Positions 7,851-50,779 of a DNA stretch of 64,000 nucleotides are shown here, piece after piece. Both the position numbers and the translations under genes were made by a program. Location: positions 24,654,761 to 24,718,760 of the forward strand of contig CP137679.1 in NCBI GenBank assembly GCA_037976565.1, given 5' to 3'. The first letter of the stretch is position 1. Each line of letters begins with the position of its first letter. The DNA is from Mesocentrotus franciscanus. Its lineage: Eukaryota; Echinodermata; Echinoidea; Camarodonta; Strongylocentrotidae. The notes under the pieces were generated by a model. It was not told the origin of the DNA. It ran no database searches and saw only the letters and a program-made list of their open reading frames with translations.

Positions 7851-10044
7851 CTAGAAATGTAATTCGTCATGAGGACGAATTAGGTGGTCTGTTATGTAAT
7901 CTGAATAACTGATCTTGTAGAAAGTTGTCTTAGCTACAACATATCAAAATTTGGAAGAAAATCGATCCATATTTACAGAGATACAATCAATTTTCCATAA
8001 ATATGCTGACGTCATAATATGCAAATTCGTATTTTGAGTTCCAAGGCCAAAGGGCAAAGGGCAGAGCTATAGAAAATTTAGGAACATTACAAGACATAAT
8101 AAAAGGAGAACGAGAACCAGAGGCGGGAGAGGTAGAGGGTGAGAGAGAAGAAAAGAGAAGGGCAGAGGCAGAGGGAGACAGAGCAAGAGAATAAGAGGGA
8201 GGCAAGGCAAGAGGTCGAGAGAGAGGAGGCAGAGAGAGAGAGAGGAGAGGCTAAAAGAGTAGAGAGATATATATGCAGAGACAGAGCAAGAGAAGGAGAG
8301 GGGCAAAATAAGAGAGGAGAAGGGAAACAGAGCAAGAGAGAGGAGAAAGAGAGAGATGCAATGGAGAACGATGCATTCAATATATCCAGCATAAATAGAA
8401 TTTAATATAGAGAAAGAGAGAAGTATAGACAAGTAAACAATTCTATGTCCACGGGAGAGACGTAAACATGCATATACCTGGGCTGAATAATTGGAAAAAG
8501 TAAAAACGTCTGGGAAGGAGACTAGCAAGGTGATTTGATATTGTTACAGAGTTGGGAGATAAACCCTATATTAGGTTTAATACACGACAAGGAACCAGAT
8601 TTCCCATAGGGTTGTACTCAAACGATTGACATTCTTCTCCCATAGATATAACACGCAAAATTAGGCATTTTATTACATTGTTTGTGATTGTATATGATAA
8701 TATGTTATAATAGTCGAAGAAGATCATAAAATCAAATTTAAAACGACGGCAAAAAAAAAAAAAATGACCCACCAGGAATCGAACTTGGGTCGCCGGAATG
8801 GGAGGCAAGTGCTATGACCACTATACCAAAATAATCCACATAGACATTACACGTGAACGGAAAATGGAATTCTCAAATCCCACTTTGCAAGTGAAATATG
8901 AGCATGATCCCGGCATCTGATCGAAAAATAAAGGGCACACTTGTGATAGCTTATTGTCTCAGCTACAACATACTCGAAGCTCAGCGAAAACAAAGCTAAA
9001 ACGACGGAGATATTGCTCGCGAAAGACGGTAATGTAGAATCCAGTTTTGAGAAAAGTCATGTCCCATAGAGAATACACGCAAAATGTGAAAAATTGACAT
9101 GCCTCCTTTAATCGCAAAAATACGCCATGATGCCTTTGTCAAAATGAAAAATCGTGGAACCTGCATTTGTAGAGAATTGTCTCAGCTAGAACAAATCAAA
9201 ATTTGGAAGAAAATCGATCAATATTTACAGAGAGACAATCAATTTTCCAAAAATATGCTGACGTCATAATATGCAAATTGAAATTTTGAGTTTGGAGGCC
9301 ATTATGATGACGTCATGAGTTAATTGAGGGTCAAATGAGACATGAAATCATATTTCCGACTCATAATCTATCCAAATATGAAAAAAATTTGGGAGTTCTC
9401 ATCCATTCTGAAGAGTTACAATGAATTTTGTATAGGCATGTTTTTGCCCATATATGCTATGTATTACAAGAGCTCGCGCGCACGGACATGTTTCTTGAAC
9501 GGACGCTCATCTTGTTATTAATGGTCATAAAGAGAAAACATGGTATCAAATTGTTCAAAAAAATGGAAATATCATGGAAGAAAAAAAAAAGGCGATTCTA
9601 TGTTGTGTAATGGTGTTACGCGCGAAAACGCACGCGCATGTGCGTGTGCGCGATTTTAAAAAAAAATGCTTAAAATGGCCAGAAACGTATGCAAAATGAA
9701 TTTGAGACGATTTTGATCATTTTTAAATTTTGCGCGCGCGCTAACACGCGGACGTACACATGTGCGCGCGTTTTTGACCTGAAATTGACCGGACGGATAT
9801 TGACCTTGATCATGATAAATATGAATGAGAAACGAATTTCCGTTATGAAGATATGATCATGAGTAGATTTTCAGAAAATTTTACAAAATGGCGCCTAGAT
9901 GACGTCATCAGTCAAGGTCAAGGTTGAAAACGTTATTTTGCTTTGTCCATATGCCTATACATATGTGTGCCAAATTTCAAGGCATTTGATTGAGCCATTT
10001 TCAAATTATCTTGCTAACAATAAAGTGGGTGGAAATAAGAAAAA
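7851..10044 (-). mobile_element. Helentron-like unit H1, family I 3' end
   Basis: Read on the minus strand, it starts immediately after the CTAG of H2 with TTTTTCTTATTTCCACCCAC. It carries a TGACGTCA-rich body, the tRNA-like module (8765-8837), a CT-rich tract (GA on plus, 8100-8400), then ACAGACCACCTAA. A hairpin AATTCGTC-loop-GACGAATT follows, then ATTTCTAG at 7851. This is the Helitron/Helentron type of 3' end: hairpin about 10 bases before CTAG. No protein-coding frame is conserved. Confidence 0.8.
8765..8837 (-). pseudogene. tRNA-Gly(CCC)-like module in H1
   Basis: Same 73-base module as the plus-strand copies: A-box-like TGGTATAGTGGTCA, anticodon-loop-like CTCCCAT, B box GTTCGATTCC and a 3' GGGTCA, followed by a T run on the minus strand. 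Confidence 0.75.
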
Positions 10045-10523
10045 CTAGACATGTTATACTTGTTTGGAACAAGTATAGGTGGGCTGTTCCAACTAAAATC
10101 TGAGACAAAATAAAGCAAAAATAAGCGAGATACTGCTATAAAAACAATGACATGTAGATTCAGGATGATGTGAACGAAATTCACCTTTCATAGGAATAAA
10201 ACGCAATTTAAGAAATTTTTGACATGTGGCCTTTAAGCGAAATTTTTATTATGATGACGTCATCAAAATGAAAAACGGTGGCCACTGAGCTTGTAGAGAG
10301 TTGTCTTGGCTATAACATATCGAAATTTGGAAGAAAACCGATCAATATTTACAGAGATACAATCAATTTTCCATAAATATGCTGACTTCATAATATTCAA
10401 ATTCGTATTTTGAGTTCCAATGCAATTATGATGACGTCAGAATATTTTTAATGGCCAAATGAGACATGAAATCATATCTCCGACTCATATACTCTATCAA
10501 AATATGAAAAAATTGGGAGTCCA

Positions 10524-10967
10524 GGGCCCGTATTCAATTCAATACTTACAAAATTTTAGCTGTTTACTTAGTATTTGTCGTCGATAAAATACTTAGCCAA
10601 TTTTGGTATTCAATTCAAACTTTTGGTTAAGTATTTTACCCTAAATTTTAGACGGCTCCCTACCAGACTTTAGCCAATCATTTGGAGGCCTTGATTGGCG
10701 CTTGTCAAGCATATGGTTTTATTACGCAGTATCATAACCTGCCCACAATTATCTTGCGCGCATTTATTGCGACGCGATAATTACGCATTACTTTTGATTG
10801 ACGGTGTGATGTCAAAATGCTATTCAGTAATTATTTTACCTAGATTTTGTCTCAGGTAAGTAATAGTCTAAAATGCGATTTGAATACGAGATAAGTAAAC
10901 TTCTTAGCTAAGCCATTTACATAGTAATTTTCTTACTTATTCTAAGTATTTAATTGAATACCGGCCC
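10524..10967. mobile_element. TIR element (MITE-like), 444 bp, inside H2
   Basis: Terminal inverted repeats of about 25 bp: the left starts GGGCCCGTATTCAATTCAAT, and the complement of the right starts GGGCCGGTATTCAATTAAAT; both continue ACTTA, about 22 of 25 bases matching. Internal sequence repeats AAATACTTA/TAAGTA motifs in both directions. GGGCC ends recall PIF/Harbinger-like or related families, but the target duplication is unclear (possibly CCA), so the superfamily is left open. Non-coding. Confidence 0.8.
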
Positions 10968-12499
10968 AGGTGCATCCCAAAGAGCTATAATGGATTTTGT
11001 ATAGGCATGTTTTTGCCCATATATGCTATGTATTACAAGAACTCGCGCGCACGGACATTTATCTTGAACGGACGTTCATTCCGTTATTAATAATCATAAG
11101 GATATTACCATGGTATCAAATTGTTCGAAAAAATGGGTAATATATCATGAAAGAAAAAAGAATGGCGATTATATGTTGTGTAATGGCGTACGTTACGCAC
11201 GAACCGCGCGCTCAAAATGGCCTAAAACTCACTCTTATTTGATTAAAAAGTGATTTTGAGGATTGTTTTTATTTTGACGCGCGTACGTGAGCGTCATGGT
11301 GCGCCTTCGGATTTTGATGACATGTTATACTGATCCTTGACCTTAAATTCAAGTGTTTCAAATATGGTTTAATTTTGATGACTCGTTTTGGCATGGTCGC
11401 AATTTCAACATTCAATTGAAAATTTCGACATGATCTCAACATCTGATCAAAAACCAAAAGCACAGTTTCTATAGCCCATGGTCTCAGCTATAACATACCA
11501 AAATTTGGGAGAACATAGAGCACAAATAAGCTAGATAGAGCTCAAAGGATAATGTCATGTAGACACATCATGTGAACGAAATTCACCTTCCATAGACATA
11601 ACGCGCAAATGAAGAAATTGTGACATGTGGCCTTTGATTGAATTTTTGACTATGATGACGTCATTAAAATGAAAATTAGTGTGTACCAATCTTGTAGACA
11701 ATTACCTCAACTACAACATATCCACATTTGGGAGAAAAATGATCAATATTTACAGAGATACACTCAATTTTCCAAAAATATGCTGACGTCATAATATGCA
11801 AATTCGTATTTTGAGTTTCAAGGCCATTATGATGACGTCCCGATCTACTTGATGGCCAAATGAGACATGAAATCATATTTCCGACCCATACTCTATCCAA
11901 ATATGGAAAAATTTTGAGGGTTCCGGTGCATCCAAAAGAGCTATAATGGATTGTTTATAGGCATGTTTTTGCCCATATATGCTATGTATTACAAGAGCTC
12001 GCGCGCACGGACATTTAACTTGAATGGACGCTCATTCCCTTATTAATGGTCATAAAGAGATAAGCATGGTATCAAATTGTTCGAAAAAAAATGAGGAATA
12101 TCGTGTCAAAAAAATCTAGGAGGAATTATTTTGCGTTCGGCCGTGACGAACGAAAACGCGCGCGCATGCGCGTGTGCGCGACTTTATGAAATGCTAACGC
12201 TAATAATGGCGTACGCGCGCGTTTTTGACCTGGAATTGACCGGACGGATATTGACCTTGATCATGATAAATATGAATGGGAAATGACTTTCCGTTATGAA
12301 GATATGATCGTGAGTTGATTTTCACAAAATGGCGCCTAGATGACGTCATCAGTCATGGTCAAGGTTGAAAACCTTATTTTGCTTTGTCCTTATGCCTATA
12401 CATATGTGTGCCAAATTTCAAGGCATTTGATTGAGCCATTTTTAAGTTATCGTGCTAACAAAAAAGTGCTTGGAAATAAGAAAAATATTCTAACGAAAA

Positions 12500-12780
12500 C
12501 ATAAGGTGGTCTGTATTATATACAGCCCACCTAATAAAGAATAAATAAATAAATAAATAAGAAAGGCAATTCTAACGAAAACATAAGGTGGTTTGTATTA
12601 TATACAGCCCACCTAATAAATAAAGAATAAATAAATAAATAATAAAGGCAATTCTAACGAAAATATAAGGTGGTCTGTATTATATACAGCCTACCTAATA
12701 AAGAATAAATAAATAAATAAATAATAAAGGCAATTCTAACGAAAACATAAGGTGGTCTGTATTATAAACAGCCCACCTAA
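12500..12780 (-). repeat. Four tandem copies of the Helentron 5' palindrome
   Basis: Near-palindromes beginning GGTGGTCTGTATTATA and ending CAGCCCACC at about 12506, 12590, 12672 and 12750. They are separated by (AAAT)n and GGCAATTCTAACGAAAA; period 79-84 bp. This mirrors the plus-strand array at 17592-17875. Confidence 0.88.
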
Positions 12781-13290
12781 TAATTTTTTGATTTTTATTG
12801 TAAAGCTCTGTTGCATCAAATGAAAATGATACGTTCATTATATGCTATTGACGGAAATAATATACATCGGACATTATACCCAAAAGGGTTATCTAGAAGA
12901 AGGTGGACAACATTATACGAGAAAGAATGAGACTTTCTATTTCTCCACGGGAAACCCGAAGGAACGGGTAAAACATTACTCAAACAAATCTTTAAAAATC
13001 TGAGTGATGTATAATCACTCAAGTGTTTAAAGCTTGAGCTGATCATGAGCTATAAACATGTTATTCGTGTTTATATAAGTGAGCATATAATGTACGATAC
13101 ACCTCATCCAAGAAGATATGTTTTAAGAGTTTATATGCCTCATCTATAATTAAACATTTTGATCGGCTTATAGTGAACTTAATAAAAGAGGTAACAATGG
13201 CATTCCCGGATATTCAATGTTGCCTTTGCCCAACCCCGCCGACCTATGGGCGCATATTCTAAGAGTAGTGTATTGAATGGAAGTACCGAA
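12781..13290. other. Non-coding spacer
   Basis: No gene seen. 13237-13290 resembles the dispersed segment at 3387 and 3556 (AGTAGTGTATTGAATGGA) and leads into the satellite. Confidence 0.4.
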
Positions 13291-14830
13291 CAATAAAATA
13301 TGAATTTTCCGCCCCCTAAGTTTCAAATCAATTTTGCGCCAATTCAATAAAATATAAATTTTCCGCCCCCTAAGTTTCAGATCAAATTTGCACCCCCTCA
13401 ATAAAATATAAATGTTCCGCCCCCCCTTAGTTTTAGATCAATTTTTTGCCCCCTCAATAAAATATAAATTTTCCGTCCCCCCTTAGTTTCAGATTAATTT
13501 TCACCCCTAAGTTTCAGATCAATTTTGCGCCCTCAATAAAATATTCATTTTCCGCCCCTAAGTTTCAGATCAATTTTGCGCCCTCAATATAATATAAATT
13601 TCCGCCCCTAAGTTTCAGATCAATTTTGAGCCCCTCAATAAAATATAAATGTTCCGCCCCTAAGTTTCAGATCAATTTTGCCCCCTCAATAAAATATAAA
13701 TTTTCCGTCCCCCCTTAATTTCAGATTAATTTTCGCCCCCTAAGTTTCAGATCAATTTTGCGCCCCTCAATTAAATATACATTTTCCGCCCCTAAGTTTC
13801 AGATCAATTTTGCGCCCCCTCAATAAAATATAAATGTTCCGCCCCTAAGTTTCAGATCAATTTTGCGCCCCTCAATAAAATATAAATTTTCCGTCCCCTT
13901 AGTTTCAGATTAATTTTCGCCCCTAAGTTTCAGATCAATTTTGAGCCCCTCAATTAAATATATATTTTCCGCCCCTAAGTTTCAGATCAATTTTGCGCCC
14001 CTCAATAAAATATAAATGTTCCGCCCCTAAGTTTCAGATCAATTTTGAGCCCCCTCAATAAAATATAAATGTTCCGCCCCTAAGTTTCAGATCAATTTTG
14101 CGCCCCTCAATTAAATATACATTTTCCGCCCCTAAGTTTCAGATCAATTGTGCGCCCCTCAATAAAATATAAATGTTCCGCCCCTAAGTTTCAGATCAAT
14201 TTTGCGCCCCTCAATAAAATATAAATTTTCCGTCCCCCCTTAGTTTCAGATTAATTTTCGCCCCCTAAGTTTCAGATCAATTTTGAGCCCCTCAATTAAA
14301 TATAAATGTTCCGCCCCTAAGTTTCAGATCAATTTTGAGCCCCTCAATAAAATATAAATGTTCCGCCCCTAAGTTTCAGATCAATTTTGAGCCCCTCAAT
14401 AAAATATAAATGTTCCGCCCCTAAGTTTCAGATCAATTTTGCGCCCCTCAATTAAATATACATTTTCCGCCCCTAAGTTTCAGATCAATTGTGCGCCCCT
14501 CAATAAAATATAAATGTTCCGCCCCTAAGTTTCAGATCAATTTTGCGCCCCCTCAATAAAATATAAATTTTCCGTCCCCCCTTAGTTTCAGATTAATTTT
14601 CGCCCCCTAAGTTTCAGATCAATTTTGCGCCCCCTCAATAAAATATAAATGTTCCACACCCTAAGTTTCAGATCAATTTTGCGCCCCCTCAATAAAATAT
14701 ACATTTTCCCCCCCCTAAGTTTCAGATTGTGTCCTCTTGATAAATTATGAATTTTCCGCCCCCTCAATAAAATATAAATTTTCCGCCCCTAAGTTTCAGA
14801 TCAATTTTGTGCCCCCTCAATAAAATATCA
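13290..14830. repeat. 52-bp satellite array with higher-order organisation
   Basis: About 29 units of a roughly 52-bp monomer containing TTCCGCCCCTAAGTTTCAGA, TCAATTTTGCGCCCCTCAAT and AAAATATAAATG. Variant monomers with CCGTCCCCCCTTAG and AGATTAATTTTCGCC recur near 13471, 13708, 13892, 14231 and 14572; the last two intervals are about 340 bp, a higher-order repeat. Edge monomers are the most diverged, as expected for unequal exchange. Pyrimidine-rich on plus; frames inside it are artefacts. Confidence 0.93.
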
Positions 14831-15039
14831 TACAATCGGATTGGTTTATGAAATCTCTAAAACCTCTAAAATGACAATTGCGATTTCGAAACCCTTCTCC
14901 GTATTACTCATATTTGTTTGGAACAAATGCGATCATCGCCATAATTCTTATCAATTGATATAAAGTTCTTAAGGAAATTTCGCCTAGAAAGCTAAAAACA
15001 TGATAAATGGGATCGCTGATATAATGGTAATCATTGCAA
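14831..15039. other. Non-coding spacer
   Basis: No supported feature. Confidence 0.3.
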
Positions 15040-17591: not shown

Positions 17592-17875
17592 TTAGGTGGG
17601 CTGTATATAATACAGACCACCTTATGTTTTCGTTAGAATTGCCTTTATTATTTATTTATCAGGTGGCTGTATATAATACAGACCACCTTATGTTTTTGTT
17701 AAAATTGCCTTTATTTATTATTTATTTATTTATTAGGTGGGCTGTATATAATACAGACCACCTTATGTTTTCGTTAGAATTGCCTTTATTATTTATTTAT
17801 TATTCTTTATTAGGTGGGCTGTATATAATACAGACCACCTTATGTTTTCGTTAGAATTGCCTTTATTATTATTTA
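17592..17875 (+). repeat. Four tandem Helentron 5' palindrome units
   Basis: AGGTGGGCTGTATATAATAC plus AGACCACCTTATG at about 17594, 17665, 17735 and 17813, each followed by TTTTCGTTAGAATTGCC and (TTTA)n. They look like 5' ends left without bodies. A hydrophobic frame through them (17579-17854) is an artefact. Confidence 0.88.
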
Positions 17876-19153
17876 TTAGGTGGTCTGTCGGCATCGACAG
17901 ATCACCTATTGTTTTTGTCAGAATTTTCTTTCTTTATTATTATTATTCTTTATTTTTATTTATTTCTACCCCTTTTTTTGTTCCGAGGATAACTCAAGAT
18001 CGGTTTTGTCAATTTCTTTCAATTTTGGCACAGTCATGGGTCATAGTCATGAGACGTGACAGGAACATTTTCAAGGTCATCAGGTCTTCATGACGTCATC
18101 CAGGCGCCATTTTGTGTTTTTTTGTACTTTCAACTCATGATCATATCTTCATAACGGAAAGTCATTTCTCATTCATATTTATCATGATCAAGGTCAATAT
18201 CCGTCCGGTCAATTTCAGGTCAAAAACGCGCGCGCATGCGTACGTCCGCGCGTCAGCGCGCGCAAAATTTCAAAATGCTCCAAATCGTCTCAAATTCATT
18301 TTGATACGTTTCAGGCCATTTTAAGCATTTCGCAAAAACTCGCACACGCACATGCGCGTGCGTTTTCGCGCGTAACACCATTACACAACATAAAATCGCC
18401 ATTTTTTTCTTTCATGATATTTCCCATATTTTTTCAAACAATTTGATACCATGTTTATCTCTTATTGACCATTAATAACAAAATGAGCGTCCATTCAATA
18501 TAAATGTCCGTGCGCGCGAGCTCTTGTAATACATAGCATATATGGGCAAAAACATGCCTATACAAAATTCATTGTAACTCTTCAGAATGGATGGGAACTC
18601 CCAATTTTTTTCATATTTGGATAGATTATGAGTCGGAGATATGATTTCATGTCTCATTTGACCCTCAATTAACTCATGACGTCATCATAATGGCCTCCGA
18701 ACTCAAAATTTCAATTTGCATATTATGACGTCAGCATATTTTTGGAAAATTGATTGTATCTCTGTAAATATTGATCGATTTTCTTCCAAATTTTGATATG
18801 TTCTAGCTGAGACAATTCTCTACAAATGCAGTCACCACGATTTTTCATTTTGACAAAGGCATCATGGCGTATTTTTGCGATTAAAGGAGGCATGTCAATT
18901 TTTCACATTTTGCGTGTATTCTCTATGGGACATGACTTTTCTCAAAACTGGATTCTACATTCCGTCTTTCGCGAGCAATATCTCCGTCGTTTTAGTTTTG
19001 TTTTTGCTGAGCTTTGAGTATGTTGTAGCTGAGACAATAAGCTATCACAAGTGTGCCCTTTATTTTTCGATCAGATGCCGGGATCATGCTCATATTTCAC
19101 TTGCAAAGTGGGATTTGAGAATTCCATTTTCCGTTCACGTGTAATGTCTATGT

Positions 19154-19226
19154 GGATTATTTTGGTATAGTGGTCATAGCACTTGCCTCCCATTCCGGCG
19201 ACCCAAGTTCGATTCCTGGTGGGTCA
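19154..19226 (+). pseudogene. tRNA-Gly(CCC)-like module in H3
   Basis: A-box-like TGGTATAGTGGTCA, a CTCCCAT loop, GCGACCCAAGTTCGATTCC (B box and T arm) and GGTGGGTCA, then 16 T. The T-arm half matches tRNA-Gly(CCC) well; the acceptor 5' strand and anticodon stem do not pair, so it is not a working tRNA. Confidence 0.78.
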
Positions 19227-19966
19227 TTTTTTTTTTTTTTTTTTGCCGTCGTTTTAAATTTGATTTTATGATCTTCTTCGACTATTATAACATATTATCA
19301 TATACAATCACAAACAATGTAATAAAATGCCTAATTTTGCGTGTTATATCTATGGGAGAAGAATGTCAATCGTTTGAGTACAACCCTATGGGAAATCTGG
19401 TATTAAACCTAATATAGGGTGTATCTCCCAACTCTGCTACAATATCAAATCACCTTGCTAGTCTCCTTCCCAGACGTTTTTACTTTTCCAGTTATTCAGC
19501 CCAAGGTATATGCATGTTTACGTCTCTCCCGTGGACATAGAATTGTTTACTTGTCTATACTTCTCTCTTCTCTATATTAAATTCTATTTATGCTGGATAT
19601 ATTGAATGCATCGTTCTCCATTGCATCTCTCTCTCTCCTCTCTCTTGCTCTGTTTCCTTCTCCTCTCTTATTTTGCCCCTCTACCTCTCCCGCCTGCTCT
19701 GGTTCTCGTTTTCCTTCTATTATGTCTTGTAATGTTCCTTAATTTTCTACAGCTCTGCCCTTTGCCCTTTGGCCTTGGAACTCAAAATACGAATTTGCAT
19801 ATTATGACGTCAGCATATTTATGGAAAATTGATTGTATCTGTAAATATGGATCGATTTACTCCCAAATTTTGCTATGTTGTAGCTAAGACAATTTTCTAA
19901 AAGATCAGTTATTCAGATTACATAACAGACCACCTAATTCGTCCTCATGACGAATTACATTTCTAG

Positions 19967-21779
19967 TTTATTTATTATTCTTTATTTATTTTTCTTATTT
20001 CCACCTACTTTATTGTTAGCAAGATAATTTGAAAATGGCTCAATCAAAAGCCTTGAAATTTGGCACACATATGTATAGGCATATGGACAAAGCAAAAAAA
20101 CGTTTTCAACCTTGACCTTGACTGATGACGTCATCTAGGCGCCATTTTGTAAAATTTTCTGAAAATCTACTCATGATCATATCTTCATAACGGAAATTCG
20201 TTTCTCATTCATATTTATCATGATCAAGGTCAATATCCGTCCGGTCAATTTCAGGTTAAAAAACGCGCGCACATGCATACGTCCGCGCGTTAGCGCGCGC
20301 AAAATTTCAAAATGCTCAAAATCGTCTCAAATTCATTTTGCATACGTTTCAGGCCATTTTAAGCATTTTATAAAAATCGCGCACACGCACATGCGCGTGC
20401 GTTTTCGCGCGTAACACCATTACACAACATAGAATCGCCTTTTTTTTTCTTCATGATGTTTCCCATTTTTTTGAACAATTTGATACCATGTTTATCTCTT
20501 TATGACCATTAATAACAAGATGAGCGTCCGTTCAAGAAACATGTCCGTGCGCGCAAGCTCTTGTATTACATAGCATATATGGGCAAAACATGCTTATAGA
20601 AAATTCATTGTAACTCTTCAGAATAGATGGAAACTCCCAATTTTTTCATATTTGAATAGATTATGAGTCGGAGATATGATTTCATGTCTCATTTGACCCT
20701 CAATTAACTCATGACGTCATCATAATGGCCTCCGAACTCAAAATTTCAATTTGCATATTATGACGTCAGCATATTTTTGGAAAATTGATTGTATCTCTGT
20801 AAATATTGATCGATTTTCTTCCAAATTTTGATATGTTCTAGCTGAGACAATTTTCTACAAATGCAGTCACCACAATTTTTCATTTTGACAAAGGCATCAT
20901 GGCGTATTTTGGCGATTAAAGGAGGCATGTCAATTTTTCACATTTTGCGTGTATTCTCTACGGGACATGACTTTTTTTTCAAAACTGGATTCTACATTCC
21001 GTCTTTCGCGAGCAATATCTCCGTCGTTTTAGTTTTGTTTTTACTGAGCTTTGAGTATGTTGTAGCTGAGACAATAAGCTATCACAAATGTGCCCTTTAT
21101 TTTTCGATCAGATGCCGGGATCATGCTCATATTTCACTTGCAAAGTGGGATTTGAGAATTCCATTTTCCGTTCACGTGTAATGTCTATGGGGATTATTTT
21201 GGTATAATGGTCATAGCACTTGCCTCCCATTCCGGCGACCCAAGTTCGATTCCTGGTGGGTCAATTTTTTAAATTTTTTTTTTTGCCGTTGTTTTGAATT
21301 TGATTTTATGATCTTCTTCGACTATTATAACATATTATCATATACTATCACAAACAATGTAATAAAATGCCTAATTTTGCGTTTTATATCTATGGGAGAA
21401 ATATGTCAATCGTTTGAGTACAACCTTATGGGAAATCTGAGTACTTGTCGTGTATTAATTTTTTATTCATAGTTGGATAGAGTATGAGCCGGAGATATGA
21501 TTTCTTATAAAAACAAAATCTAGAAAATGCATATTTCATTTTGATATTTAGATTTGAGGGTCAAAGGTCAAATATACTGTACATGGTTTCTCTAAAACCA
21601 TGCATCGTATAGACTAGAAATTTGGCACACTAAAAGACCTGAATAAGAGGATTATTTCAACAAAAAAAAGGTCAAATCATGCCAATGTTTTCTTAACTAC
21701 TTAGTATGTCATTAAACATGTGTGGCATGTACTTGAACAGCCCACCTATACTTGTTATTAACAAGTATTATATGTCTAG
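19967..21779 (+). mobile_element. Helentron-like unit H4, family II
   Basis: Starts with TTTATTTATT and TTTTTCTTATTTCCACC directly after the CTAG of H3. It has the complete shared body and tRNA-like module and ends GAACAGCCCACC, hairpin ATACTTGTT-ATT-AACAAGTAT, TATATGTCTAG. The 5' palindrome is absent. Confidence 0.85.
21191..21263 (+). pseudogene. tRNA-Gly-like module in H4
   Basis: 73-base module; A-box region has GGTATAATGG (one change from the others). B box GTTCGATTCC intact. Confidence 0.76.
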
Positions 21780-36011: not shown

Positions 36012-36335
36012 CACTGTACCATCTCCTTTGAATATTATAACACGAATCGCAAATAATGTATTAAACAACCATATTTAGTTTATTATTACCCTTTATCACT
36101 TGATCCATTACTTTTGCGTGTAATCCCTATTGGAGATGACTTTTTCTCAAATCTGGATTCTACATTCCTGTCTTTTGCGAGCAATATCGCCGTTATTCCT
36201 GCTTGGTTTCTGTTGATTTTTGAGTATGTTGTAGCTGAGACAATAAGCTATCTCAAATGTGCCCTTGATTTTGTCTTAAATTTTAGTTGGACCAGCCCAC
36301 CTATACTTGTTCTAAACAAGTATTACAAAATCTAG
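36012..36335 (+). mobile_element. Helentron-like unit H11, 3' fragment
   Basis: Contains the TGCGTGTAATCCCTATTGGA segment, GAGCAATATCGCCGT, then GGACCAGCCCACC, hairpin ATACTTGTTCTAAACAAGTAT and CTAG at 36332-36335. The rest is in the gap. Confidence 0.78.
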
Positions 36336-37888: not shown

Positions 37889-39749
37889 TTAGGTGGGCTG
37901 TATATAATACAGACCACCTTATGTTTTCGTTAGAATTGCCTTTATTTATTTATTTATTTATTCTTTATTTATTTTTCTTATTTCCACCCACTTTATTGTT
38001 AGCAAGATAATTTGAAAATGGCTCAATCAAATGCCTTGAAATTTGGCACACATATGTATAGGCATATGGACAAAGCAAAATAACGTTTTCAACCTTGACC
38101 TTGACTGATGACGTCATCTAGGCGCCATTTTGTGAAATTTTCTGAAAATCTACTCATGATCATATCTTCATAACGGAAAGTCATTTCTCATTCATATTTA
38201 TCATGATCAAGGTCAATATCCGTCCGGTCAATTTCAGGTCAAAAACGCGCGCGCATGGGTACGTCCGCGCGTCAGGGCGCGCGCAAAAATTCAAATTGCT
38301 CCAAATCGTCTCAAATTCATTTTGAATACGTTTCAGGCCATTTTAAGCATTTCAAAAAAAGCGCACACGCGCATGAGCGCGCGTTTTCGCGCGTATTTGA
38401 TTTTGCAAATAGAATCGCCAAATTTTCTCTGTCATCATATTTGGCACATTTTTCCAAGCATTTTGATACCTTGTTCACCTTTTTCTGACCAGTAATAACG
38501 CAATGAGCGTCCGTTCAAGATACATGTCCGCGCGCGAGCTCTTGTAATACATAGCATATATGGGCAAAAACATGCCTATACAAAATTCATTGTAACTCTT
38601 CAGAATGGATGAGAACTCCCAATTTTTTTCATATTTGGATAGATTATGAGTCGGAGATATGATTTCATGTCTCATTTGACCCTCAATTAACTCATGACGT
38701 CATCATAATGGCCTCCGAACTCAAAATTTCAATTTGCATATTATGACGTCAGCATATTTTTGGAAAATTGATTGTATCTCTGTAAATATTGATCGATTTT
38801 CTTTCAAATTTTGATATGTTCTAGCTGAGACAATTTTCTACAAATGCAGTTACAACAATTTTTCATTTTGACAAAGGCATCATGGCGTATTTTTGCGATT
38901 AAAGGAGGCATGTCAATTTTTCACATTTTGCGTGTATTCTCTATCGGACATGACTTTTTCAGAACTGGATTCTACATTCCGTCTTTCGCGAGCAATATCT
39001 CCGTCGTTTTAGTTTTGTTTTCGCTGAGCTTCGAGTATGTTGTAGCTGAGACAATAAGCTATCACAAGTGTGCCCTTTATTTTTCGATCAGATGCCGGGA
39101 TCATGCTCATATTTCACTTGCAAAGTGGGATTTGAGAATTCCATTTTCCGTTCACGTGTAATGTCTATGGGGATTATTTTGGTATAGTGGTCATAGCACT
39201 TGCCTCCCATTCCGGCGACCCAAGTTCGATTCCTGGTGGGTCATTTTTTTTTTTTTTTGCCGTCGTTTTGAATTTGATTTTATGATCTTCTTCGACTATT
39301 ATAACATATCATATACTATCACAAACAATGTAATAAAATGCCTAATTTTGCGTGTTATATCTATGGGAGAAATATGTCAATCGTTTGAGTACAACCTTAT
39401 GGGAAATCTGAGTCCTTGTCGTGTATTAATTTTGTATTCATGGTGGATAGAGTATGAGTCAGAGATATGATTTCTTATAAAAAACAAAATCGAGAAAATG
39501 CATATTTCATTTTGATATTTAGATTTGAGGGTCAAAGGTCAAATATACTGTACATGGTTTCTCTAAAACCATGCATTGTATAGACTTGAAATTTGGCACA
39601 CTAATAGACCTGAATAAGAGGATTATTTCAAAAAATAAGGTCAAATCATGCCAATGTTATCTTAACTACTTAGTATGTCACTAAACATGTGTGGCATGCA
39701 CTTGGAACAGCCCACCTATACTTGTTATTAACAAGTATTACATGTCTAG
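37889..39749 (+). mobile_element. Helentron-like unit H13, complete and nested in H12
   Basis: Begins TTAGGTGGGCTGTATATAAT, has one 5' palindrome, full body, tRNA-like module and family II 3' end, finishing CTAG at 39746-39749. Removing it joins GCATAT to TTTCATTTTGATATT, exactly the sequence in the other copies. This gives precise element limits (1861 bp), insertion in a T run and no target-site duplication, as described for Helentron-type rolling-circle elements. Confidence 0.92.
39171..39243 (+). pseudogene. tRNA-Gly-like module in H13
   Basis: Intact 73-base module followed by 15 T, a strong RNA polymerase III terminator in principle. Confidence 0.78.
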
Positions 39750-39991
39750 TTCATTTTGATATTTAGATTTGAGGGTCAAAGGTCAAATATAGTGTACATG
39801 GTTTCTCTAAAACCATGCATCGTATAGACTAGAAATTTGGCACACTAATAGACCTGAATAAGAGGATTATTAAAAAAAAATAAGGTCAAATCATGCTAAT
39901 GTTTTCTTAACTACTTAGTATGTCACTAAACATGTGTGGCATGAACTTGGAACAGCCCACCTATACTTATTAACAAGTATTATATGTCTAG
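39750..39991 (+). mobile_element. Helentron-like unit H12, right part
   Basis: TTCATTTTGATATTTAGATT through GGAACAGCCCACC, a shortened hairpin (TACTTATTAACAAGTA) and CTAG at 39988-39991. Confidence 0.86.
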
Positions 39992-40872
39992 TTTATTTTT
40001 CTTATTTCGACCCACTTTTTTGTTAGCAAGATAACTTGAAAATGGTTAAATCAAATACCTTGAAATTTGGCACACATATGTATTGGCATATAAACAAAGC
40101 ACAATAAGGTTTTCAACCTTGACCTTGACTGATGACGTCATCTAGGCGCCATTTTGTAAAATTTTCTGAAAATCTACTCATGATCATATCTTCATAACGA
40201 AAAGTCGTTTTCATTCATATTTATCATGATCAAGGTCAATATCCGTCCGGTCAATTTCAGGTAAAAAACGCGCGCATGCGTACGTCCGTGCGTCAGCGCG
40301 CAAAATTTCAAAATGTTCCAAATCGTCTCAAATTCATTTTGATACGTTTCAGGCCATTTTAAGCATTTTATAAAAATCGCGCACACGCACATGCGCGCGT
40401 TCGCGCGTAACACGATTATACAACATAAAATCGCCATTTTTTTCTTTCATGATATTTCCCATATTTTTCAAACAATTTGATACCATCTTTATCTCTTATT
40501 GACCATTAATAACAAGATGAGCGTCCATTCAATATAAATGTCCGTGCGCGCGAGCTCTTGTAATACATAGCATATATGGGCAAAAACATGCCTATACAAA
40601 ATTCATTGTAACTCTTCAGAACGGATGGGAACTCCCAATTTTTTTTCATATTTCGATAGATTATGAGTCGGAGATATGATTTCATGTCTCATTTGACCCT
40701 CAATTAACTCATGACGTCATTATAATGGCCTCCAAACTCAAAATTCCAATTTGCATATTATGACGTCAGCATATTTTTGGAAAATTGATTGTATCTCTGT
40801 AAATATTGATCGATTTTCTTCCAAATTTTGATATGTTCTAGCTGAGACAATTTTCTACAAATGCAGTTACAA
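39992..40872 (+). mobile_element. Helentron-like unit H14, 3' truncated
   Basis: Normal start and first 880 bp; stops at CTACAAATGCAGTTACAAC, where an unrelated inverted-repeat element begins. Confidence 0.82.
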
Positions 40873-41640: not shown

Positions 41641-42399
41641 TTAAATGAACGAAATTTAGTAGATTTGCCCTTAGCGGATTTTTGGTTGTTATTGAAACCT
41701 CTCACAGTATAAACTAAGTAATGGTCACTAATGCTAGTCTTAAAGACGCCAGTCTCAGAGTACAACTCTGGATCAGTGACAAAAACCAAGTCAATAATTG
41801 AGCATGTATTTTGAGTGATACGAGTAGGTAGGTTAACCAATTGCTTAAGACCATATAACTCGAATAGGAAGTGTAATTTATCTGCATTTGTATCTCTTTA
41901 TCACTCATGAAGTTACAGTTAAAGTCTCCAAAATAGCACAGCTGATGTTTTCAGACATTGATTTTGCAAGGCATATATCAAGCTTCTCAAAATAGTCTGA
42001 TGTCGAATTCGGTGGTCTATAAATTGAACCTAACAAAATAGGAGGTTTGTGAGGATGACAGAGCTCCAGCCACAAACATTCCAAATCATTACAATTCAAA
42101 TCATGTCTTTGCTTGAAATCATACTTATTGGATATATACATAGCGACGCCTCCACCGCGTCTGTTTCGGTCTTTACGAAGCAATACAAAGTCATCTATGT
42201 TTAGTTCAGAGTCAGGTATTGATGAGTCACACAACGTCTCATTCAAACAAATGATATCAAAAGGCTCATTTCTAAGTAAGATTTTCAGCTCATCAATTTT
42301 ATATATCAAGCTGTGAATGTTTAAGTGACAAAACTTAATGCCTCTTTGGTTTATTGTGGGGATGCATCCATTTACTAAGTCATGTAGTCTGTCAGTCAT
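41641..42399 (-). pseudogene. Non-LTR retrotransposon endonuclease domain, frameshifted, no RT
   Basis: On the minus strand, 42399-41905 encodes an apurinic-type endonuclease of the jockey/CR1 kind: KFCHLNIHSLIYKIDELK, FDIICLNETLCDSSI, a GYxxxRxDR equivalent (FVLLRKDRNRRGGGVAMYIS), LECLWLEL and GSIYRPPN. A frameshift near 41925 breaks the GDFN box. The rest continues at 41840-41630 with LVNLPTRIT, IIDLVFVTD and SISDHYLVY (the catalytic SDH). The element then ends; no RT follows, so this is a 5' remnant instead of the usual 5'-truncated 3' end. Confidence 0.88.
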
Positions 42400-42412
42400 T
42401 GACTTATCCTTT

Positions 42413-43385
42413 TCAACATAATGGCTTTTGATTCACATTCACTGCTTCAGCCCAAACTTGGTACAAGAGCATTTTGACAATACTTTTTGAAAAGCCTGCT
42501 GCTCAGAATTATGAATATAGTATCATTTGACAGGATATGTATTAGTTACCCTTTACCATATATGATTCAAGGTCACCAGGTTATAACCTTATAATTAGAA
42601 GTTACCAAAGTTGTGTACCCTTTTTTAATACGCACTGTATAGCGTTGCGGATTCTAAACTTGTTAAATTTTAGCACTGCATCTTATTCATGAATATATTA
42701 CAGCTATATACAGCCATGTAGAACCTCCATGATCAAGTGATCATAATGTCCTCTGTCATTTTCTTGCTGTGTTTATGTTTCATACACATAATGTATCTAC
42801 GTTGTTCATTATTATTTTCAAGCATACTTCGTCTGTGTTTGTATTGTACCCTGTCATCAACTGATAATCATTGTATATATATGAACCAATGGAAAATGAA
42901 ATGAGGAATACCCCCAAATGTTGAAAATAAAAAGTTGATCAACAATTTTACAACACGATATAGGTCTGCTTTACATGCAATCCTAAAACGGGGGGAAACA
43001 ATCAGGTCTCTCACATAGTCCACTTCTTTTCTACAAATCGTCTGTTATCATAACCAATGATATGGCACGATATGAAATTAAGCAATATGTCTATTAAAAT
43101 AGCTTACCCGGTTCTGAAGAAACTCCTATGATAATCACCATAAAGAGAGCTTTCCAATTGCGAATATCCATTAGTCGTTAAGCACTTGTTGATGAAACAA
43201 AAATTTAGTTGATAATAAACTCCAACTGGATATATACGACGAAAGACTTGACTGTATGATGTTATCCAATCAGAACGCAGGAAACTTAGCAACCATACAA
43301 GTTGATACAACTAAACATCCACCGAATGGATGAACGATTTTAACCAAATCAGGACTTACCGCTGGGAGATAAGCACCGGAGGGGG
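42413..43385. other. Non-coding AT-rich DNA
   Basis: No gene, RNA or repeat that I can support. Confidence 0.4.
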
Positions 43386-44505: not shown

Positions 44506-45030
44506 GATCAGTCATACTTCATTTCAACTCCGTCTACTCTTGAAGCATCTGAAAAGTATTACTGAAAAACTTTTGGAGTTGTACGTGTTAAGTAGTTTTA
44601 TATGGACGAATACTAAGTTACAGAAAGCCAGGTACATTTAGTATTTCGGCATCTTGTTCTCTTGTTTTTCCTAGCTTAGAAGAATTGTCACGTGTTAGGT
44701 TGTTTGCGTTTTATATCAAGTTCAGTTGATGTTATCAGGTTCAATATTGCCCAAATTATAACTGGTCTGGAGTAAAGACTACGCTCTAAACCCATGCTTC
44801 ATCACAGGGTCTTATAGTTTGGAAGATGGTGGAGCCTTAGTTTTAAAGTTAATGTTTTGTTTTGTTTTGTTTTATTTTATTTTGAAATAACCGGGTGTGG
44901 AGTAAAGACAACGCTCTAAACCCATGCTTTATTACAGGGTCTTAGTTTGGAGGATTGTTGGGTCTTAGATTTGAATTTTTTGTTTTGTTTTTTATTGTTT
45001 TCTATTTTTGCAATGACCGGGTCTGGAGGA
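44230..45030. repeat. Long inverted repeat, about 270-bp arms, 260-bp spacer
   Basis: 44230-44504 and the complement of 44764-45030 share in order AGACCCGGTTATT or its variants, the CAAAACAAAAC tract, the CATCTTCCAAACTATAAGAC segment and GGGTTTAGAGCGTAGTCTTT. The spacer 44505-44763 is single copy here, with no coding signal. Long hairpins like this suggest a foldback/MITE-type element or an inverted duplication of the minisatellite. Confidence 0.88.
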
Positions 45031-45856
45031 AACTGTCACTTCGTTGCTGAAATATCATCAAGACAAAAGAAGAAACATTAGAATTTCTATTTTAAATTGA
45101 AATAAAATATATAGAAGAAATAAGTAGAGAATACAATCATGATTTTGGTACTGAAGGATTAACATGGACAAGATGCACTTGTTTACATGACCACATTAAG
45201 CAATAATTTCTTAATTTTAGCGACAATCGTTCGCCATTGCTGCTCTTGAATACTACTATGACGTGCAGTAACAAATTGAAATTTGAGGACTCATGATATA
45301 TTCGTTTAACAGTTGATTCCACTTGGTTGATTCTATTGTTCGGATTGTATAGCAGAGTGAGATAGAAATTAACATTCTCATGGCAAACGACTTTACATTA
45401 TTTGTTCATCTCTAGTACAATGCTATTCGAACAATATTTGGTGACAAAAGACGGCACTCAGGTGCCATTTCTATGTAGCGTCAAAAGCCGTCAAATGACA
45501 ATCACATGGCAGATAAATGATCCTCATGCAGTACTGGGTCTAATAATTTAAACAAAACTGAATTTGAACCCGGCCATATTTTGTCTGTCTGTCTCTCTCT
45601 GTCTGTCTCTCTTTTGTCATTGCCTTCATTTTCCCTCGCTTACTTCATTCTTACCACGGAGTATGTAATGTGTATGTGTATGCCTCAATCATTGAGAATA
45701 TAATCACTAATATCGCTGAAATGATTCTTCTCCTACCCCTTCTTTTTCCTAGTAGTAGTAGTAGTTCTAGTAATAGCAGCAGTATCATAATAATCATTAT
45801 TATTATCATTGTAATATTTATTAGTATATTTAATATCGTAATTATTATCATTATTA
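45031..45856 (+). mobile_element. Repeat R2, second copy, blocks in permuted order
   Basis: ACTTCGTTGCTGAAATATC to the CTGTCTCTCTC tract (45043-45612) matches 25244-25915. It is followed directly by TATGTAATGTGTATGTGTAT and the AGTAGTAGT/ATT microsatellite, which in the other copy lies before this block. Units H15-H16 were inserted in the ATT microsatellite; the R2 continuation is at 50780. Confidence 0.75.
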
Positions 45857-47124
45857 TTAGGTGATCTGTCATTGACAGATCACCTATTGATTTCGTCAGA
45901 ATTTTCTTTCTTCTTTATTTATTTATTTTTATTTATTTCCGCCCCTTTTTTGTGTAGAGGATAACTCAAGATCGGTTCGGTCAATTTCTTTCAATTTTGA
46001 TACAGTCATAGGTCATAGTCATGAGACGTGACAGTAACATTTTCAAGGTCATCAAGTCTTCATGACGTCATCCAGGCGCCATTTTGTGTTTTTTGGTACT
46101 TTCAACTCATGATCATATCTTCATAACGGAAAGTCATTTTTCATTCATATTTATCATGATCAAGGTCAATATCCGTCCGGTCAATTTCAGGTCAAAAAAC
46201 GCGCGCGCATGCGTACGTCCGCGCGTCAGCGCGCGCGCAAATTTCAAAATGCTCCAAATCGTCTCAAATTCATTTTGGATACGTTTCAGGCCATTTTAAG
46301 CATTTTGCAAAAACGCGCGCGCATGCGCGCGCGTTTTCGCGCGTTTTGGCATTTTGCAACATAGAATCGCCAAATTTTCTCTGTCATCATATTTGGCATA
46401 TTTTTCCAAGCATTTTGATACCTTGTTCACCTTTTTCTGACCAGTAATAACGCAATGAGCGTCCGTCAAAGTATAACAGCACCCGCGGACCGCGCTATCT
46501 ATCCACAATACATGGGCAAAACATGCCTATACAAAATTCATTGTAACTCTTCAGAATGGATGGGAACTCCCAATTTTTTTCATATTTGGATAGATTATGA
46601 GTCGGAGATATGATTTCATGTCTCATTTGACCCTCAATTAACTCATGACGTCATCATAATGGCCTCCGAACTCAAAATTTCAATTTGCATATTATGACGT
46701 CAGCATATTTTTGGAAAATTGATTGTATCTCTGTAAATATTGATCGATTTTCTTCCAAATTTTGATATGTTCTAGCTGAGACAATTCTCTACAAATGCAG
46801 TCATCACGATTTTTCATTTTGACAAAGGCATCATGGCGTATTTTTGCGATTAAAGGAGGCATGTCAATTTTTCACATTTTGCGTGTATTCTCTATGGGAC
46901 ATGACTTTTTCTCAAAACTGGATTCTACATTCCCGTCTTTCGCGAGCAATATCTCCGTCGTTTTAGTTTTGTTTTTGCTGAGCTTTGAGTATGTTGTAGC
47001 TGAGACAATAAGCTATCACAAGTGTGCCCTTTATTTTTCGATCAGATGCCGGGATCATGCTCATATTTCACTTGCAAAGTGGGATTTGAGAATTCCATTT
47101 TCCGTTCACGTGTAATGTCTATGT

Positions 47125-47197
47125 GGATTATTTTGGTATAGTGGTCATAGCACTTGCCTCCCATTCCGGCGACCCAAGTTCGATTCCTGGTGGGTCA
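47125..47197 (+). pseudogene. tRNA-Gly-like module in H15
   Basis: Intact 73-base module followed by a T run. Confidence 0.78.
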
Positions 47198-48111
47198 TTT
47201 TTTTTTTTTTGCCGTCGTTTTAAATTTGATTTTATGATCTTCTTCGACTATTATAACATATTATCATATACAATCACAAACAATGTAATAAAATGCCTAA
47301 TTTTGCGTGTTATATCTATGGGAGAAGAATGTCAATCGTTTGAGTACAACCCTATGGGAAATCTGATTCCTTGTCGTGTATTAAACCTATAGGGTTAATC
47401 TCCCAAGTCTGTTGGAATATATCAAATCATCCCATTTTCATGATGTTTAGTCTCCTTCCCAGACGTTTATACTTTCCAGTTATTCAGCCCAGGTATATGC
47501 AATGTTTACGTCTCTCCCGTGGACATAGAATTGTTTACATGTCTATAACTTCTCTCTTTCTCTATAATATAGTAAATATTCAATTCTATTTATGCTGGAA
47601 ATATTAAATGCATCGTTCTCCATTGCATCTCTTTCTCTTGCTCTCTCTTGCTCTGTTTCCTTCCCCTCTCTTGATCTGCCCTCTATCCTTCTCTTGCTCT
47701 CTCATTGCATCTCTCTCTCTACTCTTTCACTCTCTCCCTATCTCTGTCTCCCTCTCTTGCTCTGCCTAGCTCCCTCTGTCTCTGCCTCTCATTGTATACT
47801 CTCTCACCCTCTCCCTTTCCCGGCCTCTGGTTCTCGTTCTCCCTCCGATATCTATTGTAATTTTCTTTAATTTCCTCTAGCTCTTCATTTTGCCCTTTGT
47901 ATTCTTATTTCACCCCTACCATGTCCTCTCTCTTCAAAGTGTATGCATTCTGATTCCTCTTTCTTCCCTCGGTCCAGCTCATGTATTTTTACATGTCAAT
48001 AACTCGTCTCCCTCTCTCCTTCTCTATATCTATATTTTCATTAAATTTCATTATGATCATGATTTTGATCATAATCTTTCTCAATATTTTGTTCATCAGT
48101 TAAGTTATCAC

Positions 48112-48245
48112 TTCAGTTCAGGTCACAGTTCAATCTATCAGTTCATTCATCAGTTCATCAGTTTAGCTCATCAATTCAGTTCATTTCACATCAGTTCAAT
48201 CTATCAGTTCATCAGTACTTCATTCATCAGTTCATATCTTAATAC
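48112..48245. repeat. TCAGTTCA microsatellite in H15
   Basis: Irregular TCAGTTCA/TCATCAGTTCAT repeats; the same array is at 50535-50668 in H16. Internal tandem repeats are common in non-autonomous Helentrons such as the Drosophila DINE-1 group. Confidence 0.8.
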
Positions 48246-48356
48246 ATCATTTTACATTAACATCATTAAATTGGATCATTGAATTGAAGATTAGCATGAT
48301 CATAAGAATTGAAGACAGATCACCTAATTCGTCCTGATGACGAATTACTTTTCTAG

Positions 48357-50779
48357 TTTTATTTCATCCGTACACTTTTTTGTGTAAACGTTTACTCGAA
48401 ATCGACATGGTCAATTTCCTTCAATTTCTGTCAGTCATCAGGCCCTATAATATCAAGTTCTAGTAACTTTCTCAAGGTCATGGGGTCATCGTGACGTCAT
48501 CCAGGCGCCATTTTGTAAACATCAGGTCATTATCTTATCTCGATAACGAGTCATCAAAAATCAACCATATTTGGTATACATCAATTTTAGGTCAAAGGTC
48601 AACAAAAATGTCGACAAAATCCGCGCGCACCTCGACGCGCGCGTACGCGCATCAAAATTTCAAAATGCTCTAATTCGTCCCAAATTTTGTTTGCACACGT
48701 TTCAGGCCATTTTAAGCATTTTCAAAATTTGCGCGCGCGCACTGATGCGCGCGTTTTCGCGCGTATTGGCATTTTGCAACATCAAATCACCAAATTTTTC
48801 TGCATCATATTTGGCACATTTTTCCAAGCATTTTGATACCTTGTTCACTTTTTCTGACCAGTAATAACGCAATGAGCGTCCGTCAAAGTATAACAGCACC
48901 CGCGGACCGCGCTATCTCTATCCACAATACATAGGCAAAAACATGCCTATACAAAACTCATTGTAACTCTTCAGAATGGATGGATACCCCAATTTTTTTC
49001 ATATTTGGATAGATTATGAGTCGGAGATATGATTTCATGTCTCATTTGACCCTCAATCAACTCATGACGTCATCATATGGCCTCCGAACTCAAAATTTCA
49101 ATTTGCATATTATGACGTCAGCATATTTTTGGAAAATTGATTGTATCTCTGTAAATATTGATCGATTTTCTTCCAAATTTTGATATGTTCTAGCTGAGAC
49201 AATTCTCTACAAATGCAGTCACCACGATTTTTCATTTTGACAAAGGCATCATGGCGTATTTTTGCGATTAAAGGAGGCATGTCAATTTTTCACATTTTGC
49301 GTGTATTCTCTATGGGACATGACTTTTTCCTAAACTGGATTCTACATTCCCGTCTTTCGCGAGCAATATCTCCGTCGTTTTAGCTTTGTTTTCGCTGAGC
49401 TTCGAGTATGTTGTAGCTGAGACAATAAGCTATCACAAGTGTGCCCTTTATTTTTCGATCAGATGCCGGGATCATGCTCATATTTCACTTGCAAAGTGGG
49501 ATTTGAGAATTCCATTTTCCGTTCACGTGTAATGTCTATGTGGATTATTTTGGTATAGTGGTCATAGCACTTGCCTCCCATTCCGGCGACCCAAGTTCGA
49601 TTCCTGGTGGGTCATTTTTTTTTTTTTTTTGCCGTCGTTTTAAATTTGATTTTATGATCTTCTTCGACTATTATAACATATTATCATATACAATCACAAA
49701 CAATGTAATAAAATGCCTAATTTTGCGTGTTATATCTATGGGAGAAGAATGTCAATCGTTTGAGTACAACCCTATGGGAAATCTGATTCCTTGTCGTGTA
49801 TTAAACCTATAGGGTTAATCTCCCAAGTCTGTTGGAATATATCAAATCATCCCATTTTCATGATGTTTAGTCTCCTTCCCAGACGTTTATACTTTCCAGT
49901 AATTCAGCCTAGGTATATGCAATCTTTACGTCTCTCCCGCGGACATAGAATTGTTTACATGTCTATAACTTCTCTCTTTCTCTATAATATAGTAAATATT
50001 CAATTCTATTTATGCTGGAAATATTAAAAGCATCGTTCTCCATTGCATCTCTTTCTCTTGCTCTCTCTTGCTCTGTTTCCCTTCCCCTCTCTTGATCTGC
50101 CCTCTATCCTTCTCTTGCTCTCTCATTGCATCTCTCTCTCTACTCTTTCACTCTCTCCCTATCTCTGTCTCCCTCTCTTGCTCTGCCTAGCTCCCTCTGT
50201 CTCTGCCTCTCATTGTATACTCTCTCACCCTCTCCCTTTCCCGGCCTCTGGTTCTCGTTCTCCCTCCGATATCTATTGTAATTTTCTTTAATTTCCTCTA
50301 GCTCTTCATTTTGCCCTTTGTATTCTTATTTCACCCCTACCATGTCCTCTCTCCTTCAAAGTGTATGCATTCTGATTCCTCTTTCTTCCCTCGGTCCAGC
50401 TCATGTATTTTTACATGTCAATAACTCGTCTCCCTCTCTCCTTCTCTATATCTATATTTTCATTAAATTTCATTATGATCATGATTTTGATCATAATCAT
50501 TTCTCAATATTTTGTTCATCAGTTAAGTTATCACTTCAGTTCAGGTCACAGTTCAATCTATCAGTTCATTCATCAGTTCATCAGTTTAGCTCATCAATTC
50601 AGTTCATTTCACATCAGTTCAATATATCAGTTCATCAGTACTTCATTCATCAGTTCATATCTTAATACATCATTTTACATTAACATCATTAAATTGGATC
50701 ATTGAATTGAAGATTAGCATGATCATAAGAATTGAAGACAGATCACCTAATTCGTCCTGATGACGAATTACTTTTCTAG
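48357..50779 (+). mobile_element. Helentron-like unit H16, family I, mosaic
   Basis: Starts after CTAG of H15 without a 5' palindrome. The first 520 bp (48357-48880) are strongly diverged from H15, but from about 48885 to the CTAG at 50776-50779 it is nearly identical to H15, including the CT tract, the TCAGTTCA repeats and the 3' hairpin. A marker segment CAAAGTATAACAGCACCCGC is shared only by H15 (46468) and H16 (48891). Confidence 0.88.
49542..49614 (+). pseudogene. tRNA-Gly-like module in H16
   Basis: Intact 73-base module followed by 16 T. Confidence 0.78.

Follow-up and report, generated by a model that had tools for sequence, protein, structure and literature searches.

Organization of the array

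The window analysed here is a 64 kb stretch of the Mesocentrotus franciscanus genome (C14:24654761-24718760; 36% GC; assembly of 773 Mb in 21 contigs), and self-comparison shows that between 7.8 and 50.8 kb a single body of sequence is repeated on both strands. A prior sequence-only reading had described about 16 units sharing one body, with 3' ends composed of a hairpin and CTAG, and both descriptions are borne out. We propose that this array is mainly a nest, in which newer copies of a putative rolling-circle-type element inserted into the 5' microsatellite of older copies, and we consider this the probable origin. The proposal draws on the anatomy of the units, truncations of the same tract on both sides, a clean empty site in one case, the presence of such junctions at further loci, and their genome-wide frequency.

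Fourteen CTAG 3' ends are present in the window, at 7851 and 10045 (minus strand) and at 19966, 21779, 23564, 26226, 26545, 28553, 30159, 36335, 39749, 39991, 48356 and 50779, and all fourteen have TT directly 3' of CTAG. A perfect hairpin stem of 6-10 bp lies ahead of CTAG at thirteen of these, the exception being the 26226 end, where the stem is interrupted and the fold z is -0.9; the hairpins of three ends tested give z of -2.8 to -5.6. The hairpin is 18-23 nt long and is positioned 9-12 nt from the element end. An A-type 3'-end pattern, 26226 included, matches five times in the window and never in 100 shuffles.

The 5' end of the element, referred to here as the head, is in the B family a T(T/C)AGGTGGGCTG palindrome followed by (TTTA)n. 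The palindrome is laid out as T(T/C)-AGGTGGGCTGTAT-ATA-ATACAGACCACCT, and the (TTTA)n tract, often with a ATTCTTTA motif, separates it from the body. A head palindrome pattern has 22 matches, corresponding to both strands of 11 window sites, with none in 100 shuffles, and BLAST identifies fourteen window heads, ten plus and four minus, that begin with T(T/C)AGGTGGGCTGTATATAATACAGACCACCT or A variants of it. At the opposite end the order is a subterminal inverted repeat (CAGCCCACCT), the hairpin, and CTAG-3'. Units are 1.8-2.5 kb in size and the body has no long reading frame, the longest stop-to-stop frame inside units being 158 aa.

Within each family, the 10 nt behind T(T/C) and the repeat preceding the hairpin are exact reverse complements, with the pairs being AGGTGGGCTG/CAGCCCACCT in B, AGGTGGTCTG/CAGACCACCT in A, and AGGTGATCTG/CAGATCACCT in A1. 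These 10-nt subterminal repeats covary at both ends between the three families, and because they are complementary family by family, the heads and the 3' ends belong to one element. The 5' subterminal repeat also folds as a hairpin, with z of -6.0 to -6.4.

A tRNA-like stretch (21186-21266), followed by a run of T, is conserved at the equivalent place in most units. It has what we take to be a resemblance to box A and box B; a tRNA identity was rejected, as there is no Rfam tRNA match at E<=10 and ARAGORN reports none.

Junctions between units

Units that follow a CTAG mostly start within the (TTTA)n tract and are headless, as for example where CTAG is followed by TTTATTTTTCTTATTTCC. The base after CTAG is not the element 5' end as had been supposed, the 5' end being T(T/C)AGGTGG and onward. 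When the fourteen window ends are read by eye, eight abut a headless B-type body, one the A2 body, and one a head directly, while two (26226 and 39749) lie within the tail of another unit and two abut other DNA. Nine of the ten unit-to-unit junctions in the window lack a head.

Tract lengths were compared over 20 loci together with window positions 7001-13500 and 17001-51500. Heads that are cut within the tract (n=26) keep a mean of 16.7 nt of it and all 26 end in A, headless bodies (n=27) keep a mean of 5.9 nt, and uninterrupted heads (n=11) have 24.8 nt. That cut heads and headless bodies break in one short tract is a stronger point than the balance of brackets described below.

Direct evidence of insertion of a copy into a copy is provided by b9, a complete element at 37889-39749 lying within the tail of its neighbour b8 and not in plain head-to-tail order. 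When b9 is removed, GCATAT and TTCATTTTG are rejoined to give the sequence of the intact paralogues b1, b2 and b4, showing that insertion was between T and T; no target duplication is seen at this site.

A more elaborate arrangement is present at 17592-32674, where four cut heads, a complete A element, headless b1-b3, two cut heads, complete b4, and headless b5-b7 follow one another (Table 1). With cut heads as opening and headless bodies as closing brackets, the order is ((((Ie)e)e)e((Ie)e)), with six open and six closed and a count that is never negative. The summed tract lengths of the six window pairs are even to a degree that 24 of 720 pairings equal when lengths are taken from the sequence.

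Table 1. Parts of the array, in window positions.
Part	Positions	Strand	Description
m1	7851-10044	minus	Outer unit of G1; headless body with A-type 3' end; starts with CTAG followed by TTTTTCTTATTTCC
m2	10045-12534	minus	Inner unit of G1; complete M-family copy of about 2.5 kb, with head, without microsatellite; 3' end is the CTAG at 10045; contains a MITE-like insert
B heads	12535-12780	minus	Three further heads, all cut within the microsatellite
B heads	17592-17875	plus	Four cut heads (open brackets), starting at 17592, 17659, 17733 and 17810
A	17876-19966	plus	Complete A element (5' AGGTGGTCTG, 3' CAGACCACCT) within the innermost cut head's microsatellite
b1	19967-21779	plus	Headless body, B 3' end
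b2	21780-23564	plus	Headless body, B 3' end
b3	23565-26545	plus	Headless body, interrupted; tail from 26227 to 26545
Insert in b3	24840-26226	plus	Third 3'-end type (CTAG at 26226, weak hairpin); 5' end unrecognised
B heads	26546-26683	plus	Two cut heads right behind the b3 CTAG, starting at 26546 and 26617
b4	26684-28553	plus	Complete B element, from head through uninterrupted microsatellite and body to 3' end
b5	28554-30159	plus	Headless body
b6	30160-31963	plus	Headless body without 3' hairpin and CTAG
b7	31964-32674	plus	Headless, 3' truncated; closing bracket for the outermost head (17592)
Unit 3' part	36100-36335	plus	Left side in or beyond the N gap; left limit approximate
b8	36336-39991	plus	Headless body split by b9; tail from 39750 to 39991
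b9	37889-39749	plus	Complete B element within the b8 tail (clean empty site)
b10	39992-40871	plus	Headless body, 3' truncated
A1	45857-48356	plus	Complete A-type element (5' AGGTGATCTG, 3' CAGATCACCT)
A2	48357-50779	plus	Headless body, 3' end the same as A1

Recurrence at other loci

Searching the whole genome with exact patterns gives 1161 heads, 961 B/M-type 3' ends, and 366 headless junctions (a 3' end, up to 28 nt, and a body start), and reversed-pattern controls give zero for each. About 38% of the exact 3' ends abut a headless body.

Individual loci were collected with window positions 10000-10300 as query; of 2566 candidates, 40 places were scored and contain 43 matches, and counts for other loci refer to the 20 best matches besides the window. 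These contain fifty 3' ends, for which the next bases are TT in 44, TC in four, GT in one and CA in one. They run into a headless body (22), a tract remnant ahead of a head (6), a head directly (6), or other DNA (16); twelve window ends classified by the same criterion are distributed as 7, 0, 1 and 4. A regular-expression count of 58 ends, window included, gives 29, 6, 5 and 18 in these four classes, and on that count headless or tract-plus-head junctions are found in 12 of the 20 loci. A body start lies behind just one of 429 other CTAG sites in the locus and window DNA fetched.

Dispersed copies sharing the ends of the array units, as expected from the sequence-only reading, are also present, and seven of the 20 loci (L016, L017, L022, L023, L024, L026 and L027) have a solitary complete copy. 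L022, L023 and L024 are one segmental duplication (C5:1.95-2.82 Mb), whose three 10 kb copies are about 99% identical and contain one M copy each.

Four arrays, L010, L012, L019 and G1, follow a common plan of a cut head, an M copy and a headless body. A FastTree phylogeny of 15 M copies, without L012, does not place the G1 and L010 copies as sisters, so at least these two arrays look like separate events. For the same reason we rejected movement of m2 and m1 as one composite, a candidate raised because G1 and L010 are 96.3% identical along 4.8 kb. Most M copies lie 1.3-2.0% from their nearest neighbour, the distance rising to 3.0-3.6% for L018, L020 and L028 and falling to 0.1-0.3% for L022-L024.

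The insert in m2 resembles a miniature inverted-repeat transposable element (MITE; 10540-10960, minus strand; inverted ends GGGCCGGTATTCAATT and AATTGAATACGGGCCC). M copies of L016, L026 and L010 have it too, which makes it a passenger of the M family.

Bracket order was judged in ten arrays and is balanced in five of them: window 17592-32674, L010, L012, L019 and L020. Arrays were left out of this judgement where a surplus of open brackets reaches the locus edge (L009, 4:3; L011, 5:3; L025, 7:2), where the first token is a 3' end no more than 2.1 kb from the edge (L015, 0:3; L018, 0:3; L028, 0:1), or, for G4 with two closed, where the left side is in an N gap. The bracket rule is often blurred. 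At position 7031 of L020, a complete copy apparently lies within the 3'-hairpin loop of another B unit, with its head preceded by CAGCCCACCTATACTTGTTA.

Relative ages of neighbouring copies

If the copies are nested then the inner ones are expected to be younger, and the inner copy has fewer private changes in seven of eleven window neighbour pairs. The difference is significant and in the predicted direction for b2/b3, b3/b7, b4/b5 and b6/b7 (p 0.0005-0.03), and the direction also agrees, without significance, for b9/b8 and b8/b10. A1/A2 agrees as well (p 4e-10), but through the divergent front of A2; these two have 14 differences in the last 1700 aligned bases and are only about 77-85% alike in the first 450, which suggests that the pair is chimeric or converted. 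Terminal branches of M copies are shorter than those of the following headless bodies in five of seven cases (G1, L013, L018, L019 and L028).

Several observations weigh against the nesting interpretation. Six open and six closed brackets fall into balanced order by chance one time in seven, and when hand-typed tract lengths are used the pairing test gives 48 of 720. Three of the eleven age pairs run in the opposite direction (b1/b2 and b5/b6, both non-significant, and m2/m1) and one, A/b1, is tied. For m2/m1 the raw count gives p=4e-20, an excess arising because m2 belongs to a divergent subfamily; when polarised with b7, m2 has five private changes in 520. The M-copy branch comparison is contradicted at L010 and L020 (2/7). 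Four arrays are unbalanced (open:closed of 3:1 in G1, 0:1 in G5, 0:2 in L013 and 0:1 in L014), and in L021 three complete copies are separated by orphan tract pieces for which there is no matching head or body. Our locus sample is biased toward junctions because the query itself spans one, and the 366 headless junctions are possibly swollen by later exchange. It is because only half of the ten judged arrays are balanced that our confidence in the nest is reduced.

Alternative origins of the array

Rolling-circle read-through past the 3' terminator would generate true head-to-tail concatemers, and tandem arrays in bat and silkworm have been attributed to such terminator bypass (PMC4067079). The ends running straight into a head (6/50 in other loci and 1/12 in the window) are in keeping with this, and G5, with one head, two bodies and near-identical tails, could be an end-bypass product. 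Read-through should, however, leave a full head at every junction, whereas most are headless, and at the direct end-to-head junctions the right unit is M and the left unit non-M in four of seven. Adjacent B units also differ by 3.3-9.2% (within the 600-1440 stretch) and b6/b7 by 17.5%, with only A1/A2 (1.3%) looking fresh. Because most junctions are head-free, we rejected read-through, one of two causes that the sequence-only reading had put forward, as the main one, and overall we regard this origin as improbable. Unequal crossing-over between bodies, with few nested events and subsequent multiplication of units by recombination, also strikes us as improbable. Mosaic identities among units speak for it, as do L013, L014 and G5, where headless bodies stand with no cut heads, and the remainder TTTA common to 47 of 100 junctions listed (hand count), yet the other 53 have other remainders. 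Exchange within bodies yields headless bodies without cut heads, yet 26 cut heads are found against 27 headless bodies, and G1 and L010 look like independent nested events.

Targeting of resident 3' ends by new copies, which was also suggested earlier, accounts for a minority of junctions, and as the main cause it is very improbable. There are seven cases in which CTAG or CTAT runs directly into a head: CTAG followed by T(C/T)AGG at L009, L018, L020, L028 and window 26545, and CTAT near variants at L013 and L025. These make up only 7/62 ends, and headless bodies and stacked heads are left unexplained. With an M copy following a non-M unit in 4/7, the direct cases are apparently 3'-end insertions rather than concatemers, which suggests a minor second mode with insertion exactly between a resident CTAG and the following T.

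Insertion into the 5' microsatellite, the origin that we favor, would proceed as follows. Copies insert mostly between A and T, frequently in A/T-rich tracts, and B copies have a tract of this kind some 50 bases in from the 5' terminus, such that new copies would often land there. The older head would remain upstream with the older body directly following the CTAG of the new copy, and repeated insertion would pile heads to the left and bodies to the right, with the youngest copy innermost. Presumably the Rep/helicase of an autonomous partner carries out the insertion, and the (TTTA)n tract, not another feature of the head, would be what is recognised. Chimeric transposition or recombination at a later stage may account for unbalanced arrays. 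Where heads are stacked and bodies are few, the published explanation is that transposition started at an outer 5' end and stopped at the nest's first 3' end (PMC5148889). Bodies lacking heads may reflect transposition that began at an inner 5' end and ran past the terminator of that same copy, or unequal exchange.

Relationship to Helitrons and Helentrons

The base 5' of T(C/T)AGG in 65 heads is A in 52, T in 6, G in 5 and unclear in 2, with the single duplication at L022-L024 counted three times in this tally. Among the 28 heads that are neither behind another head nor directly behind CTAG it is A in 22, T in 5 and unclear in 1. The 5' dinucleotide of the 65 heads is TC in 29 and TT in 34. 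HINE-type elements insert between T and T (PMC4067079, PMC2374699); most heads here do not have this context, although the clean empty site of b9 does. Palindromic subterminal inverted repeats near both ends and a 3' hairpin, as in Helentrons and HINEs, are present; the mostly A^T target, judged from flanking bases, and the 3' CTAG are those of canonical Helitrons, and the subterminal inverted repeats are not. Thus the earlier designation of the units as Helentron-like fits the subterminal palindromes but not the mostly A^T target or the Helitron-like T(C/T)...CTAG ends. As judged from sequence features, the units are probably non-autonomous rolling-circle-type elements with mixed termini, for which we choose neither Helitron nor Helentron.

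Several described groups share part of this combination. HINE/DINE-1-like non-autonomous Helentrons have palindromic subterminal repeats, one placed 2 nt in from the 5' terminus and the other preceding the 3' hairpin, together with a left-module microsatellite and a T-rich target preference (PMC4067079, PMC7492417), whereas the units here are mostly preceded by A and have a long body with no satellite-like central array. Canonical Helitrons (PMC4067079) are similar in the 5' TC of part of the units, the 3' CTAG (CTRR), the hairpin and the mostly A^T target, but differ in that our units have subterminal inverted repeats and 5' TT in 34/65 heads. The proto-Helentron of Phytophthora infestans (PMC4067079), likened here by description and not by sequence, has 5' TT, 3' CTAG and A/T insertion, but is about 14 kb and encodes a Rep/helicase. 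FoHeli of Fusarium oxysporum (PMC5148889) has stacked 5' termini with a single 3' terminus, for which self-insertion was proposed, and the same paper describes three tandem Helitron copies in Metarhizium that possibly reflect two insertions into a 5' end. The present family differs from FoHeli in that copies land in a defined (TTTA)n tract, there are hundreds of junctions in one genome, and cut heads and headless bodies are both retained and countable.

No autonomous partner was found. Helitron_like_N has 128 matches in the genome. The Rep motif at 20 loci is RGSPHxH in 16, RGLPHxH in 3 and neither in 1, RGSPHxH being the Helentron-type motif (PMC4067079). Six Rep sites, located on C1 and in the first 33.58 Mb of C2, were compared by eye with the head positions, and none lies within 20 kb of an exact head. 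A multi-copy Helentron-type Rep family (L034-L042, L045, L046 and L048) has members 94.2-99.7% alike to L037, and the repeated stretch 5' of Rep in this family looks coding. Viral and prokaryote contigs (exact-pattern search) and phages (blastn) give zero matches.

Other features of the window

The boundary between b6 and b7 (31963/31964) had been taken as a CTAG junction and has neither hairpin nor CTAG; b6 ends at CACACTAATAG right before headless b7, as either an alternative end or a deletion. A gap of 500 N (35512-36011) masks the left side of the third run. A1 sits in a repeat that resumes at about 50780. Another repeat family occupies 24879-25979, 45030-45857 and 50785-50926, with its left and right parts in opposite order at two places, and A1-A2 is inserted in the second of these. 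Tandem repeat arrays are located at 13291-14828 (52 bp units) and 53381-54557 (units of about 218/441 bp). A fragment of a long interspersed nuclear element (LINE) endonuclease is at 41905-42432 (minus strand), with an 87% identical protein on a 29 kb public contig; Pfam comparison of six window open reading frames gave one LINE endonuclease just under the cut-off and two chance-level lines.

Significance

Self-insertion and stacked 5' ends (PMC5148889) and tandem Helitrons (PMC4067079) have already been published, and our search of the open-access literature found no report of a family with its own 5' microsatellite as main landing site. Tandem Helitron arrays have been ascribed to terminator bypass (PMC4067079), and the junction anatomy here discriminates nesting from read-through. 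The bracket rule also yields a relative order of insertion that is checkable against divergence. Tentatively, this may be a family that carries its own landing pad, (TTTA)n by the 5' palindrome, with arrays that log insertion order and a transposase that also takes the site between CTAG and T. The ingredients are known, and a case this clear at genome scale is instructive; if the interpretation is true, the built-in landing pad would make the family well suited as a model of target choice in rolling-circle transposition and of the origin of stacked 5' ends.

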